The notes beneath the pieces are model-generated. The model searched no databases. It saw nothing but the letters and a program-made list of their open reading frames with translations, and had not been told where the DNA came from. The translations under genes and the position numbers were made by a program. Below, one piece after another: positions 43,510-49,292 of a stretch of 64,000 nt of DNA. Positions within the stretch are counted from its first letter, which is position 1; every line of letters starts with the position of its first letter. This DNA is from Deltaproteobacteria bacterium HGW-Deltaproteobacteria-8 (GTDB taxonomy: Bacteria; Desulfobacterota; Desulfovibrionia; Desulfovibrionales; Desulfovibrionaceae), in assembly GCA_002840405.1 (NCBI GenBank), contig PHAR01000001.1, positions 578,320-642,319 on the forward strand. The letters are read 5' to 3'.

Positions 43510-44475
43510 ATGAGCACAAACGTTACCAATATCCTCCTCGAGGCTGGAACCAACGAACTGGAGATTGTCGAGTTCTACCTGGAGGAGCCGCACCCCGGGG
43601 GCGGAGAGTCCTACAAGGGCTACTACGGCGTCAACGTGGCCAAGGTCCTGGAGATCATCCGGATGCCCAAGATCACGGAGATGCCCCAGGTCTCCCACCC
43701 CTCGGTGCTCGGTGCCTTCAACCTGCGCAACCAGATCATCCCCCTGGTGGACCTGGCCCTGTGGCTCAAGAAAGATCACGGAGACAAGGAGCCGCCCAAG
43801 GTCATCGTCTGCGAGTTCAACAACGTGACCACGGCCTTCCTGGTCTCCGGCGTCACGCGCATCCACCGCATCAGCTGGGAGGAGGTGGAGGCGCCCAACA
43901 AGTACATGTCCTCGCTCGCCTCGAACTCCATCACCGGCGTGGTGCGCCTGGAAGGCCGCATCATCTTCATCCTGGACCTGGAAAAGATCGTGGCCGAGCT
44001 GAACCCGGAACTGGGCCTGCGCTTCGACGAGAACGTGACCTGGGAGGCCGACACCCAGTACCGCGCGCTCATCGCCGACGACTCCACCCTCATCCGCGAG
44101 ATGATCGGCGACCTGCTGCACAAGGCAAACTTCATGGTCGAGAAGACCAACCACGGCGGAGAGTGCTGGGAGCGCCTGCAGCACATCAAGCAGATCGCCG
44201 AAACCGAGGGCCGGCCCGTGACCGACTACGTGCAGGTGGTCATCTCGGACATTGAGATGCCGGTCATGGACGGCCACAACCTGACCAAGCGCATCAAGGA
44301 AGATCCGATGCTCAAGAATCTTCCGGTGATCCTGTTCTCGTCCATCATCTCCGACAAGCTGCGCCACAAGGGCGACGCCGTGGGTGCGGACGACCAGGTC
44401 AGCAAGCCGGAGATCACCCAGGTGGCCAAGCGCGCCGTGGCCCTGATCAAGGAAAGGATCGAGGCCGCGCGGTAG
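43510..44475 (+). CDS. cheV: Chemotaxis coupling protein CheV (CheW-REC)
   Basis: A 321-residue fusion. The CheW-like domain (about 10-170) links receptors to CheA. The receiver domain (about 185-315) has the acidic pair D190-D191 (LIADDST), phospho-acceptor D247 (ISDIEMPVMDG) and switch/Lys residues (LFSS; SKPE). It is a single gene with its own ribosome site (GGAGCCGCCG) and a strong terminator, away from other chemotaxis genes in the window. Confidence 0.95.
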   Translation: MSTNVTNILLEAGTNELEIVEFYLEEPHPGGGESYKGYYGVNVAKVLEIIRMPKITEMPQVSHPSVLGAFNLRNQIIPLVDLALWLKKDHGDKEPPKVIVCEFNNVTTAFLVSGVTRIHRISWEEVEAPNKYMSSLASNSITGVVRLEGRIIFILDLEKIVAELNPELGLRFDENVTWEADTQYRALIADDSTLIREMIGDLLHKANFMVEKTNHGGECWERLQHIKQIAETEGRPVTDYVQVVISDIEMPVMDGHNLTKRIKEDPMLKNLPVILFSSIISDKLRHKGDAVGADDQVSKPEITQVAKRAVALIKERIEAAR

Positions 44476-44504
44476 CCCTGCCCAACGACTCTCCTGAGCG
44501 AATC

Positions 44505-44549
44505 AAGACCGCCCGGCGTCCTTTGGGGATGCCGGGCGGTCTTGTTTTG
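44505..44549 (+). terminator. Terminator after cheV
   Basis: A 17-bp stem with one G-U pair: AAGACCGCCCGGCGTCC (44505-44521) with GGATGCCGGGCGGTCTT (44527-44543), then GTTTTG. The remaining 180 bp up to the convergent Nramp gene show nothing recognisable. Confidence 0.9.
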
Positions 44550-44735
44550 GGAAAAATCCGGGGCTCAGCGCCTGTTCACGGCCGCTGGCCTACGCGGCGG
44601 CGCCAGATGGCACTCGTGGCGCGGGTAGCAGGACCAGCCCGGCATGGACCCTCTGTCCCAGCGGCAGGCCCACGGCCTCGGCCAGGGGCGGCCACGCCGC
44701 CAAAGCGCGCAGGATATGGGTGCCGGATCAGGCGG

Positions 44736-46022
44736 CTAGCGGCCCATGAGCAGGGCGATGAGCCCTGGGAAGACCATCTCCAGGGTCATCAACACCGTCA
44801 GCCCCAGCACGATGACCACCGTGCCCCAGGCGATAATGTTGAATGTGGCCTTGTTGACGTACTCGCCCATGAGCCGCTTGTCGTTGATGAGCAGCAAGAT
44901 GATGATGAGCACAAAGGGCAGCACCGCCCCGTTCACCACCTGGGAAATATACATGATGGCGATGAGCGGCGCGCCGGGCAGAAGGATGATGCCCGCAGAC
45001 ACGGCGATGATGACGGTGAACAGCCAGTAGAACTGCGGGGCCTCGCGGAATTCCTTGCCCACGCCAAGCTCCCAGCCCAGGCCCTCGCAGATGTAGTAGG
45101 ACGTGGACAGGGGCAGCACGCAGGCCGCGAACAGCGAGGCGTTGAACAGGCCGATGGCGAACAGCCCGGTGGCGTAGCCGCCCACCAGCGGGGTCAGGGC
45201 CAAGGCCGCATCGGCTGCGGTGTTGACCGTGACCCCGGCCTTGAAGATGGTCGCCGCGCAGGCCACCACGATGAAGAAGGCCACGATGATGGCCATGAAG
45301 CAGCCCACAATGACGTCCAACCGCGAGAAGGCGTAGTTCTCCTTGGTGATGCCCTTCTCCACCACGCTGGCCTGCTGGTAGAACTGCATCCAGGGGGCGA
45401 TGGTGGTGCCGACAATGCCGATCATCATGGTCACGGCATCGGGGGTGACGTGGAAGTCCGGCACCACCGAAGCCTTGAGCACCTCGCCCCAGTCCGGCCC
45501 GGACATGAAGGCGGCCACGGGATAGGCGATGTAGACCAGGCAGGCCACCAGGAAGACCTTTTCCACGATGCGGTAGGAGCCCTTGACGATGAGCAGCCAG
45601 ACGACGATGGCGCCCAGGGGCACGGAGACATACTTGCTGATGCCGAAGAGCTCCATGCTGGCCGCGATGCCCGCGAACTCGCTGACGGTGTTGCCCATGT
45701 TGGTCAGGAACAGGGCGATCATGACGTAGAAGGTGATCTTGACGCCGAAGCTCTCGCGGATCAGGTCGGCCAGGCCCTTGCCCGTCACCGCGCCCATGCG
45801 CGCGCACATCTCCTGCACCACCACCAGGGCCACGGTGGTGGGCAGCATGATCCACAGCAGCGAGAGCCCGAACTGCGCCCCGGCCAGGGAATAGGTGGTG
45901 ATGCCGCCGGCGTCGTTGTCCACGTTGGCGGTGATGATGCCCGGCCCGAGCAGCGCCAGGAACATGAACACGTTCCGGCGGTTGAGCTTGCGCAGAGGCG
46001 CGATGAATTTTGCTGCGGTCAC
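44736..46022 (-). CDS. Nramp-family (SLC11-like) divalent metal permease, Nramp-related Mg transporter type
   Basis: A 428-residue inner-membrane protein with about eleven hydrophobic segments of the LeuT-like SLC11 fold. The first-helix metal motif, DPGN in Mn/Fe Nramps, reads VDNDAGG (D35, D37, G39-G40). The sixth-helix MPH reads A209-P210-W211, so the metal-binding Met is lost. Loss of that Met is a feature of the Nramp-related magnesium transporters described in clostridia and Eggerthella, so magnesium is the likelier substrate; this is inference. It follows the MgtE_N/CBS gene by 20 bp in one transcript and lacks a terminator I can see. Confidence 0.85.
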   Translation of the reverse strand: MTAAKFIAPLRKLNRRNVFMFLALLGPGIITANVDNDAGGITTYSLAGAQFGLSLLWIMLPTTVALVVVQEMCARMGAVTGKGLADLIRESFGVKITFYVMIALFLTNMGNTVSEFAGIAASMELFGISKYVSVPLGAIVVWLLIVKGSYRIVEKVFLVACLVYIAYPVAAFMSGPDWGEVLKASVVPDFHVTPDAVTMMIGIVGTTIAPWMQFYQQASVVEKGITKENYAFSRLDVIVGCFMAIIVAFFIVVACAATIFKAGVTVNTAADAALALTPLVGGYATGLFAIGLFNASLFAACVLPLSTSYYICEGLGWELGVGKEFREAPQFYWLFTVIIAVSAGIILLPGAPLIAIMYISQVVNGAVLPFVLIIILLLINDKRLMGEYVNKATFNIIAWGTVVIVLGLTVLMTLEMVFPGLIALLMGR

Positions 46023-46042
46023 TGTATCCTACCCCATCAATC

Positions 46043-47320
46043 CTAGAACTTGCGCAGGGACTTGTACTGCTTCCAGCGCAGGGCGAAGGGCAGGAAATGT
46101 TCCATGATGTCGTCGGCCGAGACGATGCCCGCCATCTTGCCGTCCTCTTCCAGCACAGGCAGTGCGGCCAGCTTGTACTGCACCACCAGCTCGAAGACCT
46201 CGTCCAGGGACGAGTCCACGTGCACGCTCTTGGGGTTGCGGCTCATGACCTCAGCCACGGGGGTCTCCCCGGCCGTGAGCAGCAGGCGCTTCAGGCTCAA
46301 CACGCCGTGCAGCTGCTCACCCTCGTCCACCACATAGACATAATAGATGTTGTCGACCTCGGCGGCCAGCAGGCGCACCTGGGCCATGGCGTCGTCCACG
46401 GTGGCGTCGGGCATGACGAAGAGATACTCGTTGTTCATGAGGCCGCCGGCTGAGTCGTCCTCGTGCTCCAGAAGTTCCTGGACCTTCTCGGCGTCCTCGG
46501 GGTCCATGTACGAGAGCAGCTCCTGGGCCTTCTCGTCGGAGTACTCGGCCAGCAGGTCGGCGGCCTCGTCCGGGGGCATCTCCTCCAGCACGTCGGCGGC
46601 GTGCGCGTTCTCCAACTGGCTCAGCACGCGGCTGGAGTCCTCGGGCTCCATCTCGCCCAGGGCCTCGCCCGCCACGTCCATATCAAGCGAGTTCAGCACC
46701 GCCGAGACGTTCTGGTGCGGCAGCTGGGCGATGATGTGCGCCAGGTCGGCCGGGTGCAGGTCCGAAAGCTTGTCGCGGGTGACGGTGAGGGTCAGCCGGG
46801 AGAGGTTGGCGCCCAGGGGCTGCACGAACAGCCAGTCGATCTCCTTGCGCGCCAGGGGCCGGTGCAGCATCCCGCCCATGAGATCCCAGGCCTTGAGGTA
46901 GCCAAGGCGGCGCAGCACGCCCCGGAAGCCCACGTCCACCGCCGCCAGGCACAGGTCGTCCAGCATGGGTTTGAGCTTCAGGTCGTTGACGCGCACCACG
47001 CGCGCGCCGTCCACGTCCACGATCTGCTTGTCCAGGATGTCCCGGCGCATGAGCACCTCATCCTCAAGCTCAGGCACGTCGCCCGCGCCCTGCAGCTCGC
47101 CCTTGAGCGACACCACCACGGGGTTGAACAGGGCAATGTCGGCCCAGGGCACGCGCCGGATGTTCCCGGCCTTGCGCACCAGCAGGTGCTTCACCTGGGG
47201 CAGGGGCTCGCCAGGGCTCATGGCCACGTCCCACAGCCTGCCGATCTCTTGGCCGGACAGGCTGATGACCGGGCGGTCCAGCACCGCGCTCAGAAAGAGG
47301 CCGTCGTCGAGCTGTCTCAT
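46043..47320 (-). CDS. PRC-barrel/MgtE_N/CBS soluble sensor protein, no channel domain
   Basis: A 425-residue soluble protein. Two PRC-barrel-like segments (about 8-75, LSGQEIGRLWDV; and 90-150, QIVDVDGARVVRVNDL) precede an MgtE N-terminal superhelix (about 188-295; LHPADLAHIIAQLP, EMEPEDSSRVL, EEMPPDEAADLL, DDSAGGLMNNEY) and a CBS pair (about 295-412). In MgtE channels these last parts bind magnesium and gate the pore. Here the protein ends right after CBS2 (KQYKSLRKF), where the channel would begin. GGAGG precedes ATG 47320. The next gene is an Nramp-type permease, so it probably senses metal for that transporter. Confidence 0.85.
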   Translation of the reverse strand: MRQLDDGLFLSAVLDRPVISLSGQEIGRLWDVAMSPGEPLPQVKHLLVRKAGNIRRVPWADIALFNPVVVSLKGELQGAGDVPELEDEVLMRRDILDKQIVDVDGARVVRVNDLKLKPMLDDLCLAAVDVGFRGVLRRLGYLKAWDLMGGMLHRPLARKEIDWLFVQPLGANLSRLTLTVTRDKLSDLHPADLAHIIAQLPHQNVSAVLNSLDMDVAGEALGEMEPEDSSRVLSQLENAHAADVLEEMPPDEAADLLAEYSDEKAQELLSYMDPEDAEKVQELLEHEDDSAGGLMNNEYLFVMPDATVDDAMAQVRLLAAEVDNIYYVYVVDEGEQLHGVLSLKRLLLTAGETPVAEVMSRNPKSVHVDSSLDEVFELVVQYKLAALPVLEEDGKMAGIVSADDIMEHFLPFALRWKQYKSLRKF

Positions 47321-47463
47321 GCGGACCTCCAGGCGGATGCGGACAGGCGCGGGGCAATGTGCGCTCCCAAAAGCGGCGCGGCCGCAGGACGGCGCAGGGG
47401 CTCGCCGCCGCGAAACGCGGGCAGGTCCAGGGGACTTGTGAGCCGAATGAGGGTGCGGGGCAT
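47317..47463 (-). CDS. Small ORF coupled to the sensor gene (possible leader peptide 2)
   Basis: A 48-codon ORF, not similar to anything I know: MPRTLIRLTSPLDLPAFRGG, then an Arg/Pro/Ala-rich remainder ending WRSA. AGGAGG lies six bases before its ATG, better than most genes here, and its TGA overlaps the ATG of the PRC/MgtE_N/CBS gene (ATGA). Translation of the sensor is therefore probably coupled to it. It could be a leader peptide or simply a small coupled protein. Confidence 0.5.
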   Translation of the reverse strand: MPRTLIRLTSPLDLPAFRGGEPLRRPAAAPLLGAHIAPRLSASAWRSA

Positions 47464-47481
47464 CGGCCACCTCCTGCATGT

Positions 47482-47508
47482 GCGTCGCCAGCGTTACGGC
47501 GGCGACGC
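47482..47508 (-). promoter_or_regulatory. Leader hairpin next to the ribosome site of the small ORF
   Basis: GCGTCGCC (47482-47489) pairs with GGCGACGC (47501-47508), an 8-bp stem with an 11-nt loop; on the transcript it ends 8 nt before AGGAGG. A second G/C stem (GCCCGG...CCGGGC, 47519-47549) precedes it. Together they give a structured leader between the two short ORFs, suited to translational or attenuation control. Confidence 0.4.
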
Positions 47509-47553
47509 GTCAGGGGCGGCCCGGAGTGCGCGCTTTGGGGGCGCCGGGCGGCT

Positions 47554-47649
47554 TCAGACGAGAGGGGCCGGGTAGGCTGGCAACTCGGGTTCGCTTAGAT
47601 GCTCAAAATAATGAAACAAATCAAAGCATCTACTGTACGGGTCGTCCAT
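47554..47649 (-). CDS. Short upstream ORF with acidic/proline-rich peptide (possible leader peptide 1)
   Basis: A 31-codon ORF: starts M-D-D-P-Y, ends SEPELPAYPAPLV. GAGG lies six bases upstream of ATG 47649 and a TTGACA promoter lies 60 bp upstream. Acidic and proline residues cluster at both ends, as in the MgtL/MgtP leader peptides that control enterobacterial magnesium transporters. Codon use (AGA, CTA, TTG, several TTT) is unlike the GC-rich neighbours. There is no homology I recognise; a leader-peptide role is inference from position and composition. Confidence 0.5.
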   Translation of the reverse strand: MDDPYSRCFDLFHYFEHLSEPELPAYPAPLV

Positions 47650-47683
47650 TACATTCCTCAAAACGGTTAGGTTAAGCGAAACA

Positions 47684-47713
47684 GTATTAGGCCTGCGCAA
47701 TGTCAGCTGTCAA
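47684..47713 (-). promoter_or_regulatory. Promoter of the metal-transport operon
   Basis: Minus strand TTGACA (47708-47713), 18 nt, TAATAC (47684-47689). Transcription would start at about 47677, giving a leader of about 28 nt before the 31-codon ORF and about 357 nt before the sensor gene. I found no M-box riboswitch in this leader. Confidence 0.5.
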
Positions 47714-47897
47714 TCGCGCTTGTGAAACATTCGTGTGACGGCCAGAAGTTGTCCTGCTCCCCGGAACAGCTCCGGTGCAGGCCCCGGTTGGCCGAATACC
47801 AAAAGCCGGAAGCCCGCGACTGCGCGAACTCCGGCTCATCCAAGGCCGCCGCAAGGCTCAAACCGGAACGAGGCCCGGCAGACGATGCAGCGGCTGG

Positions 47898-48089
47898 TTA
47901 TTTCTTGGTCTCTGACTGCTGGGTCGACTGCTGGGCAGGATCGGCCACGCCGTCCAGGCCCTTGCGCAGTTCGCGGATGCTCTTGCCGATGCTGGCGCCA
48001 AGCTGCGGGAGCTTGCTCGGGCCGAAGATGAACAGGGCGATGACAAGGACCAGCAGCAGGTGCATGGGCTGGAAAAGCTGTCCGAACAT
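47898..48089 (-). CDS. tatA: Twin-arginine translocase subunit TatA/E-type
   Basis: A 63-residue protein: one N-terminal membrane helix (MHLLLVLVIALFIFG), the FGPSKLPQLG hinge typical of TatA, an amphipathic helix (SIGKSIRELRKGLDG) and a polar tail. TatA oligomers form the passage for folded, often cofactor-bearing, proteins. GGAGG precedes ATG 48089. No tatB/tatC is adjacent. The 207 bp upstream show no clear promoter. Confidence 0.93.
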   Translation of the reverse strand: MFGQLFQPMHLLLVLVIALFIFGPSKLPQLGASIGKSIRELRKGLDGVADPAQQSTQQSETKK

Positions 48090-48296
48090 GGCGGTTCCTC
48101 CGTGTTCCCGTGGAGCGGCGGACGCATCTGGCATCCTGTGGTCCAGGGGAGGCTTGCGCCGGTTTCCCGGCATCATCCGGTCGGCGGGTCGGTTCTCGGG
48201 GTGTCGGTAGGGAACAAGATCCAACGGGGCCGATACTGTCTCAATCCAGGCGCGGGGCCGCTGCCGTTGGGCAAGGGCTCTCTCGCTTGGCAGGCC

Positions 48297-49292
48297 TTAC
48301 AGCGTCCCTTCGCCCCCGTCAATACGCATCTTGAGATGTTGATACGCCTTTGCCGTGGCCACGCGGCCGCGCGGTGTGCGCTTGATGAACCCGCACTGGA
48401 TGAGGAAGGGCTCGTAAATGTCCTCGATGGTGCGCGATTCCTCGGAGCAGGCCACGGCGATGGTCTTCACCCCCACCGGGCCGCCGCTGAACTGGTTCAC
48501 GATGAGCGAGAGAATCTTGCGGTCCATCTGGTCCAGGCCGTACGGATCCACGTCGAGCTTGTCCAGCGAGTCCTCGGCCAGGGCCTTGTCCACCGTGGCC
48601 TGGCCCTGCACCACCGCATAGTCGCGAATGCGCCTGAGCAACCGCCCGGCGATGCGCGGGGTCCCGCGCGACCTGCGCCCGATGGCCCAGGCCCCCTCTT
48701 CGGTGATCTGCACGCCCAGGATTCCCGCCGCGCGCAGCACGATGCGGGCAAGCTCCTCGGGCGCATAGAACTCCAGCCGGAACACGCAGCCGAAGCGGTC
48801 GCGCAGGGGCGAGGTCAAAAGCCCCACGCGCGTGGTGGCGCCAACCAGCGTGAACGGCTCAAGGTCGATCTTGACCGAGCGCGCGCCCGGCCCCTGACCG
48901 ATGATGAGGTCGATCTTGTAGTCCTCCATGGCGGGGTACAAGATCTCCTCCACAGTGGCGGGCATGCGGTGGATCTCGTCGATGAACAAAATGTCGTGCC
49001 GGGAAAGGTTGGTCAGGATGGCCGCCAGGTCGCCCACGCGCTCCAGCACCGGGCCGCTCGTGGAGACCATGTTCACGCCGAGCTCGCTGGCCATGATCTG
49101 GGCCAGCGTGGTCTTGCCCAGGCCGGGGTTGCCGGAGAACAGCGTGTGGTCCAGCGCCTTGCCGCGTTCCCGCGCCGCCTGGATGAACACGCCGAGGTTG
49201 GAGCGCAGGTCGTCCTGGCCGATGAAGTCGTTCAGCCGCTGCGGACGGATGGTGTCGTCCGGCAGGGAGCTTGGCGTGAAGTCGTCGCTCAT
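48297..49292 (-). CDS. ruvB: Holliday junction branch migration ATPase RuvB
   Basis: A 331-residue AAA+ motor. Walker [10 protein letters not shown], Walker B FIDEIHR, sensor region TLVGATTR, and a C-terminal winged helix ([26 protein letters not shown] in part). It starts at ATG 49292, overlapping ruvA by 4 bp (ATGA). Last gene of yebC-ruvC-ruvA-ruvB. Confidence 0.97.

Follow-up and report, generated by a model that had tools for sequence, protein, structure and literature searches.

A soluble MgtE-like sensor encoded beside an Nramp-related magnesium permease is a candidate feedback gate of magnesium uptake

How does an importer that carries Mg2+ without proton coupling escape overloading the cell, and could a sensing module known from one transporter fold serve another? 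These questions are raised by two neighbouring genes in a 64,000-nucleotide stretch of the genome of Deltaproteobacteria bacterium HGW-Deltaproteobacteria-8 (assembly GCA_002840405.1, contig PHAR01000001.1, positions 578,320 to 642,319 of the forward strand; hereafter the window). Both lie on the minus strand: the upstream gene encodes a soluble protein (hereafter the sensor) that joins two PRC barrels to the MgtE_N superhelix and CBS pair of the magnesium channel MgtE, and the downstream gene, after a gap of 20 nt, encodes a permease of the Nramp-related magnesium transporter (NRMT, or NrmT) type. We hold it to be reasonably probable, though well short of certain, that the locus encodes a two-protein Mg2+ uptake system in which the sensor serves as a feedback gate of the permease, docking through its second PRC barrel (PRC2). 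The pairing and the feedback idea were first published in 2014, and the window pair is a further example of them.

The sensor matched the Pfam families MgtE_N (E value 4e-25) and CBS (2e-21, in two stretches), with no match to the MgtE channel family PF01769; the whole genome is likewise without an MgtE channel-domain match, and its three MgtE_N matches are the sensor (C8:624773) and one each on C11 and C5. Pfam reported one PRC barrel, just under the cut-off on the whole protein (3e-4) and over it on the N-terminal 178 residues (5.9e-5), whereas the AlphaFold model of residues 1-178 (predicted local distance difference test score 85) contained two: residues 4-174 superposed on the tandem-PRC protein CdpB (Z 12.1, 131 residues, root-mean-square deviation (rmsd) 3.2), and the reaction-centre H subunit matched the first barrel (Z 5.6-7.3 among the matches listed). 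A match to PF05239 at E values up to 0.1 was present in 35 of 36 sensor N-terminal regions. Residues 178-409 superposed on the cytosolic domain of Thermus thermophilus MgtE (TtMgtE; Z 22.2, 232 residues, rmsd 4.2). The initial annotation, which had described a soluble, channel-less protein with MgtE_N, a CBS pair and two PRC barrels 20 nt upstream of a permease, is thus borne out by Pfam and fold. CdpB1 and CdpB2 share the tandem PRC fold and the H subunit has a single barrel; these proteins serve in cell division and photosynthesis, respectively, unrelated to the sensor, and neither kind is known to contain MgtE_N or CBS. PRC2 was the most conserved sensor domain in a set of 105 non-redundant sensors, from which 9 of 114 sensor-permease pairs had been removed as duplicates: over residues 88-140 the mean entropy was 1.16, and 14 of the 53 columns reached an identity of 98% or more. 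From two proteins, the intact MgtE fusions described below, we take PRC2 as the putative docking site for the permease.

The window permease matched Pfam Nramp at an E value of 9e-105, and its best PDB match was 7qia, the NRMT of known structure EleNRMT, at 6.1e-123, the next distinct chain following at 3.3e-33. According to Ramanadane et al. (2022, PMC8806188; this and the other papers are cited from the accessible part of their text), NRMT proteins are marked by a DxxG motif in helix 1, a TxxA/T motif in helix 6 and substitution of the helix-6 histidines. Alignment placed DxxG, TxxA/T and the Trp that replaces the first helix-6 histidine in 103 of 104 permeases including that of the window, the remaining one having a gap there and some genomes being represented twice; in an overlapping set of 105 paired permeases, helix 6 carried TxxA/T in 103, AxxA in one and a gap in one (matches spanning less than about 330 residues had been dropped before both alignments). 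The assignment of the window permease to NRMT, the magnesium branch of SLC11, is well supported by its sequence, which upholds the initial annotation of a magnesium-type Nramp permease, transport itself being predicted. EleNRMT, which shares family, DxxG-TxxA motifs and Trp with it, was studied without a sensor, and MgtE is named in the accessible part of PMC8806188 only as another Mg2+ transporter or structure, or in a reference. The sole other Nramp match of the same genome (L004) has the canonical motifs DPGN and AVVMPH, no adjoining sensor and presumably a role in Mn transport.

Co-occurrence of the two genes extended across phyla. Among 198 genomes of the window's phylum, a full-length sensor was found in 44, a permease of at least 30% identity in 46 and both in 44 (sensor counts here and in the 148-genome set below, as well as the fusion search, are taken among the matches listed, with the weak end left out; permease matches under 30% identity were excluded from the NRMT count, except G259, at 28%, kept in the second-phylum set). 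All 44 sensor genomes have an NRMT-type permease, partial in G042 (35% identity), the signature having been read for those of the 44 paired permeases whose DNA was retrieved. Sensor and permease lay within 1 kb of each other in 38 of the 44, with 29 in the order sensor-then-permease, six convergent and three permease-then-sensor, and the other six pairs were on different contigs. The convergent pairs (G064, G099, G154, G174, G179 and G027, of families f28 and f19) indicate that adjacency is retained without a shared transcript. Likewise, the two genes were adjacent in 76 of the 80 named loci that ranked best among at least 550, 74 as sensor-then-permease and two convergent, and in the four remaining genomes an NRMT-like gene was located at another place, in one case at the start of a contig; close named relatives of the sensor, with 75-91% identity, included a Desulfovibrionales and a Humidesulfovibrio genome. 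In the second phylum, Nitrospirota (148 genomes), a sensor match reaching beyond the MgtE-like part occurred in 54 genomes (four of them partial), 51 of which also had the permease, and 52 of 57 sensors adjoined it; the three without permease comprised two with sensors at contig ends (G285, G290) and one MgtE fusion. The linkage that the initial annotation had proposed to look for across genomes was therefore found in both phyla.

Within the window's genus, 15 of 15 genomes gave a match, with a window-type sensor in 14 (two broken by contig ends), while all that is left of it in G216 is a short remnant, accompanied by a divergent paralogue. G213, G215 and G216 carry a second, paralogous permease-then-sensor pair (loci L169, L170 and L171) with its own divergent DAGG permease and a sensor about 31% identical to that of the window, so that the pairs appear to travel as units. 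Sensor-permease gene fusion was absent from all 15 loci read base by base, eight of them chosen because the gap was nil, negative or very small (one ordinary locus counted among them) and seven for their long open frames. Each had two open reading frames (ORFs) divided by a stop codon, in some cases with a slight overlap of a few nucleotides. Sensor and permease distances correlated (r 0.77, 105 pairs), and this was not used as evidence of contact because co-inheritance alone predicts it. The permease-only genomes of the window's phylum, G005 and G119, were considered as NRMT carriers and rejected, their proteins being other Nramp relatives (DDDPSG with TTISPY, and DDDPAC with ASFSPY) with no sensor match. 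Six Nitrospirota genomes were permease-only (G293, G261, G278, G273, G220, G259): G293 in fact carries a sensor, cut by a contig end and below threshold; G261 and G278 have an NRMT-like form of 551-553 residues with no sensor found, and G273 has a similar open frame (554). NRMT-like permeases of this 551-553-residue form at loci L180 and L183 are extended at the C-terminus and carry DAGA in transmembrane helix (TM) 1 and TTIAPW in TM6; no sensor was found with them, and they are perhaps a differently regulated branch. In G027, a 712-residue open frame located about 3.4 kb away from the NRMT gene contains a second Nramp match (G027:C12:47407-48591), which shares 27% identity with the window permease.

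Genomes with the sensor rarely have the MgtE channel. In the 198 genomes, 3 of the 44 with a sensor had a channel domain above the cut-off, versus 115 of the 154 others (Fisher P = 1e-16), and in Nitrospirota in 3 of 54 versus 52 of 94 (P = 2e-10; one of the three being a fusion), by tests that ignore shared ancestry and incomplete genomes. CorA was not excluded (34 of 44 sensor genomes, 85 of 154 others). In eight of 15 families tabulated (f1, f7, f11, f16, f19, f31, f40 and f46), some genomes have only the sensor and others only MgtE, with no genome combining the two; the family of the window is among these eight, and outside its genus six of six sampled members have MgtE and no sensor. The three genomes with sensor and MgtE all belong to family f8. 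This distribution supports the view that the sensor-NRMT pair behaves as an alternative to MgtE. Of 32 relatives' loci scanned, 14 (4 of 16 and 10 of 16) had an M-box riboswitch on the same strand about 80-400 nt ahead of the sensor, all 14 being Geobacter-type relatives; no M-box was detected in window positions 44000-49000 at E values up to 5.

The magnesium sites were compared with TtMgtE, where E59 contacts Mg7, D91 and D247 Mg4, D226 and D250 Mg5, D95 Mg6, E258 Mg2 and D259 Mg3 (Maruyama et al. 2018, PMC5882242). The window sensor retains the counterparts of E59, D91, D95 and D247 (Mg7, Mg4 and Mg6), and at Mg5 has Lys for D226 and Glu for D250. Across the 105 sensors, D95 of Mg6 was invariant (105/105) and E59 of Mg7 acidic in 104; mean conservation of Mg-site acids was 0.90 versus 0.59 at other acidic positions, with the Mg4 positions ranking 19th and 21st of 50. 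The sensor chain stops 18 residues past the D250 position, and the plug-helix motif (E258/D259) occurred in none of the 29 sensors with a readable C-terminus (of 30) and in all three MgtE controls, which come from the window's phylum, two being near-copies, after a fourth (<300 aa) had been dropped. D226 was Asn in one of these three. Kept acids and MgtE fold support a sensor that reads Mg2+, the identity of the ion being the likely rather than the observed part. The comparison of acidic sites with Thermus MgtE, which the initial annotation had proposed as a check, thus finds the acids kept at Mg4, Mg6 and Mg7 and lost at D226 and in the plug; the larger claim of that annotation, of an MgtE sensor moved onto an unrelated transporter fold, agrees with the pair being an alternative to MgtE, but the MgtE mechanism cannot have moved over unchanged, given the missing plug-helix acids and the Lys at one Mg5 position. 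In overall comparison, TtMgtE (2YVX, 2ZY9) shares the MgtE_N and CBS fold with the window sensor, and the latter differs in lacking channel and plug helix and in its added tandem PRC.

We also considered a lost ATP site as a trait that might distinguish the stand-alone sensor. The ATP-contact residues of MgtE are Y170, R187, D188, N203 and F227 (PMC5529423), and these positions read Y, K, R, S and L in the window sensor, four of five being changed; among 30 sensors, R187 was kept in 20, D188 in 20 and F227 in 11. This candidate was dropped: D188 and F227 are also absent from all three MgtE controls, so that the change does not set the sensor apart.

Some Nitrospirota carry the same sensor fused to the MgtE channel. 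The fusion of G361 (607 residues) has the order PRC-PRC-MgtE_N-CBS-plug-MgtE channel (Pfam MgtE 4e-28, MgtE_N 4e-27, PRC 6e-7); used as a query against 395 genomes, it matched a fusion in G482 (63% identical over its length), and a third, in G448, is cut at a contig end before the PRC region. No NRMT gene lay in the 3-6 kb around any of the three, nor anywhere in the G361 genome. The gene next downstream of all three fusions, which we take to be mtnA-like, also follows the permease in 25 of 35 loci (those of 44 compared that had enough sequence after the permease); the synteny is one-sided, because the upstream genes differ between G361 and the one relative listed, L106. In a quick tree, the two intact fusions formed one group inside the stand-alone Nitrospirota sensors (Shimodaira-Hasegawa-like approximate likelihood ratio test: pair supported at 97, the clade of 12 rows at 99), and since they are nested there, the fused state is probably derived. 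Judged from these sequences, the NRMT gene probably disappeared and the sensor became fused to an MgtE channel. At 15 near-invariant PRC2 columns, G361 departs at D97, V111 and N112 and G482 at Q99, R110 and V111, versus no departure in 103 of 112 stand-alone sensors, one in seven and six in two; at 18 MgtE_N and 13 CBS columns, G361 has no departure and G482 one in each. A wider reading, which we regard as tentative and fall just short of endorsing, is that the sensor is a portable Mg2+ gate on two unrelated folds, docking on NRMT through PRC2 in most lineages and joined by a plug helix to the MgtE channel in some Nitrospirota, where the channel would have replaced NRMT upstream of the gene that both kinds of locus share, with decay of the PRC2 docking motif setting in afterwards.

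The pairing has been described before. Shin et al. (2014, PLoS Genet, PMC4072509) reported a MgtE-fragment gene beside most NrmT genes and M-box riboswitches preceding NrmT genes, proposed cytoplasmic feedback and termed the role of the fragment unknown. Their operons resemble the window locus in having an NRMT permease beside a homologue of the MgtE cytoplasmic domain, with M-box control in some; they differ in that the accessible main text makes no mention of PRC or CBS, and neither exclusion of MgtE nor replacement by the MgtE channel was found in that part of the article. Tandem PRC barrels, near-exclusion with MgtE and MgtE-channel replacement were not found in the searched literature, which left supplements and most subscription journals outside.

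In the mechanism that we favour, the NRMT permease would import Mg2+, as predicted by analogy with EleNRMT, which carries Mg2+ without proton coupling (PMC8806188), while the soluble sensor would read cytosolic Mg2+ between its MgtE_N and CBS domains and, docked on the permease through PRC2, would inhibit uptake as a negative feedback gate. The genome comparison supports, and does not prove, feedback control of the importer by the sensor; we infer physical contact, the role of PRC2, the negative direction of control and Mg2+ as the sensed ion. Several observations weigh against this mechanism or the portable gate. Besides the neglect of ancestry and genome completeness in the co-occurrence tests, the Mg4 pair D91/D247, both Asp in 82 of 105 sensors and mixed in five, has lost both acids together in 18 (Ser with Ser or Asn), so that sensing differs between lineages, the loss being probably one or few events; at Mg5, D226 is acidic in just 20% of the 105 and D250 in 77%. 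L169 and L171, each with its own NRMT adjoining, depart at six PRC2 near-invariants including Q99, R110 and N112, so that pairing does not strictly depend on these residues, and a changed partner may explain the departures. The V111A change is shared with three stand-alone sensors (L139, L189 and L191), leaving two distinctive PRC2 changes per fusion. Furthermore, C. acetobutylicum permeases were functional without the fragment, and co-expression of the A. capsulatum fragment gave no better rescue, in a case where the NrmT resembled a Mn transporter (PMC4072509). A negative gate need not improve rescue; as far as the accessible text goes, these data neither show nor exclude one and do not support gating.

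The pairing data would also fit a sensor that, instead of gating the permease by inhibition, helps it to assemble, remain stable or become active, or supplies its inner mouth as a Mg2+ chaperone. A PRC barrel is also present in the reaction-centre H subunit, one of the fold matches, which caps membrane subunits. Chaperone activity of the MgtE-like fragment was offered as an alternative in 2014, but the same work found NrmT functional on its own in B. subtilis (PMC4072509), and the Mg-site acids kept in MgtE_N and CBS would be needless for a pure scaffold; we consider such a partner unlikely. A pair handling another divalent metal such as Mn2+, with the sensor answering to that metal, would accord with the Mn-like A. 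capsulatum NrmT despite its adjacent fragment (PMC4072509). Yet the window permease bears the EleNRMT signature, the genome has a second, canonical Nramp presumably for Mn, M-box magnesium riboswitches precede the sensor in relatives, and the pair nearly excludes MgtE, which together make another metal very improbable.

We give similarly little credence to a sensor acting elsewhere, on expression or the ribosome, and merely co-regulated with the permease. CBS and PRC modules occur in many regulators, and RimM, a PRC-barrel protein, was among the fold matches; however, adjacency outlasts changes of gene order, convergent arrangements included, the MgtE-channel fusions place the same sensor on a transporter, and no DNA-binding domain appeared in the Pfam results for the sensor. 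The feedback gate thus remains the reading that we prefer.

The features of the locus, and of the fusion and long-permease loci, are collected in the table. The permease ORF starts with GTG; the sensor starts at the ATG at 47320, behind a ggagg site, and a longer form of its ORF begins at 47479. The end at 47713 given in the initial annotation proved to be the first base of the TTGACA-N18-TAATAC sequence upstream, not of the sensor ORF. A 31-codon ORF beginning MDDP, with a GAGGAA site, was present in 6 of 14 genus loci scanned, including the window, and its frame was open in all six. It was rejected as a conserved leader peptide, as 51 synonymous versus 180 non-synonymous pairwise codon changes give no sign of constraint at the peptide level. 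Between the permease and the convergent CheV-like gene, we noted a GC-rich inverted repeat, terminator-like by eye, with only sub-threshold Rfam matches. No relative was matched in viral contigs by a single-protein query, which detects close relatives only.

Table. Coordinates of the features discussed (window positions unless a locus handle is given)
Feature	Position	Strand	Basis or remark
NRMT-type permease, 428 aa	44736..46022	-	Pfam Nramp; best PDB match EleNRMT
TM1 metal-site motif DAGG (DxxG; canonical Nramp DxxN)	45903..45914	-	alignment
TM6 motif TTIAPW (TxxA; Trp replacing first TM6 histidine)	45390..45407	-	alignment
Stand-alone sensor PRC-PRC-MgtE_N-CBS-CBS, 425 aa, soluble	46043..47320	-	ORF call, Pfam, fold matches
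PRC barrel 1, residues 8-75	47096..47299	-	Pfam PRC, fold
PRC barrel 2 and following helix, residues 88-178, consensus LDKQIVDxxGAKVVRVND	46787..47059	-	fold
MgtE_N superhelix, residues 182-285; E219, D251, D255 = TtMgtE E59, D91, D95	46466..46777	-	PDB alignment, alignments
CBS pair, residues 286-410; D404, E407 = TtMgtE D247, D250; K383 = D226	46091..46465	-	alignments
Short C-terminal tail at the place of the MgtE plug helix, plug acids absent	46046..46090	-	alignments
Sigma70-like TTGACA-N18-TAATAC	47684..47713	-	pattern match in 6/14 genus loci including the window, one degenerate
Region of the promoter-like sequence and the MDDP small ORF	47554-47713	-	6/14 genus loci including the window
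TatA/B-like gene, upstream neighbour	47898-48224		Pfam; no evident link to the pair
CheW-receiver (CheV-like) gene, convergent, downstream	43510-44475		Pfam; no evident link to the pair
GC-rich inverted repeat	44499-44549		by eye
MgtE-channel fusion, Nitrospirota set	L178 2075-3895	-	
MgtE-channel fusion, Nitrospirota set	L202 1428-3248	-	
MgtE-channel fusion, Nitrospirota set	L201 2022-3242	-	cut by contig end
Long NRMT-like permease	L180 2172-3824	-	
Long NRMT-like permease	L183 184-1842	+	

Should the sensor indeed gate the permease, transporters of two unrelated folds would be under the control of a single Mg2+-sensing module, a clear example of regulation that can be exchanged, and the pair would suggest a way in which an uncoupled NRMT importer may escape Mg2+ overload. 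The PRC2 motif, the Mg6 site (Asp255) and the natural fusions provide specific residues and proteins with which such gating may be tested.

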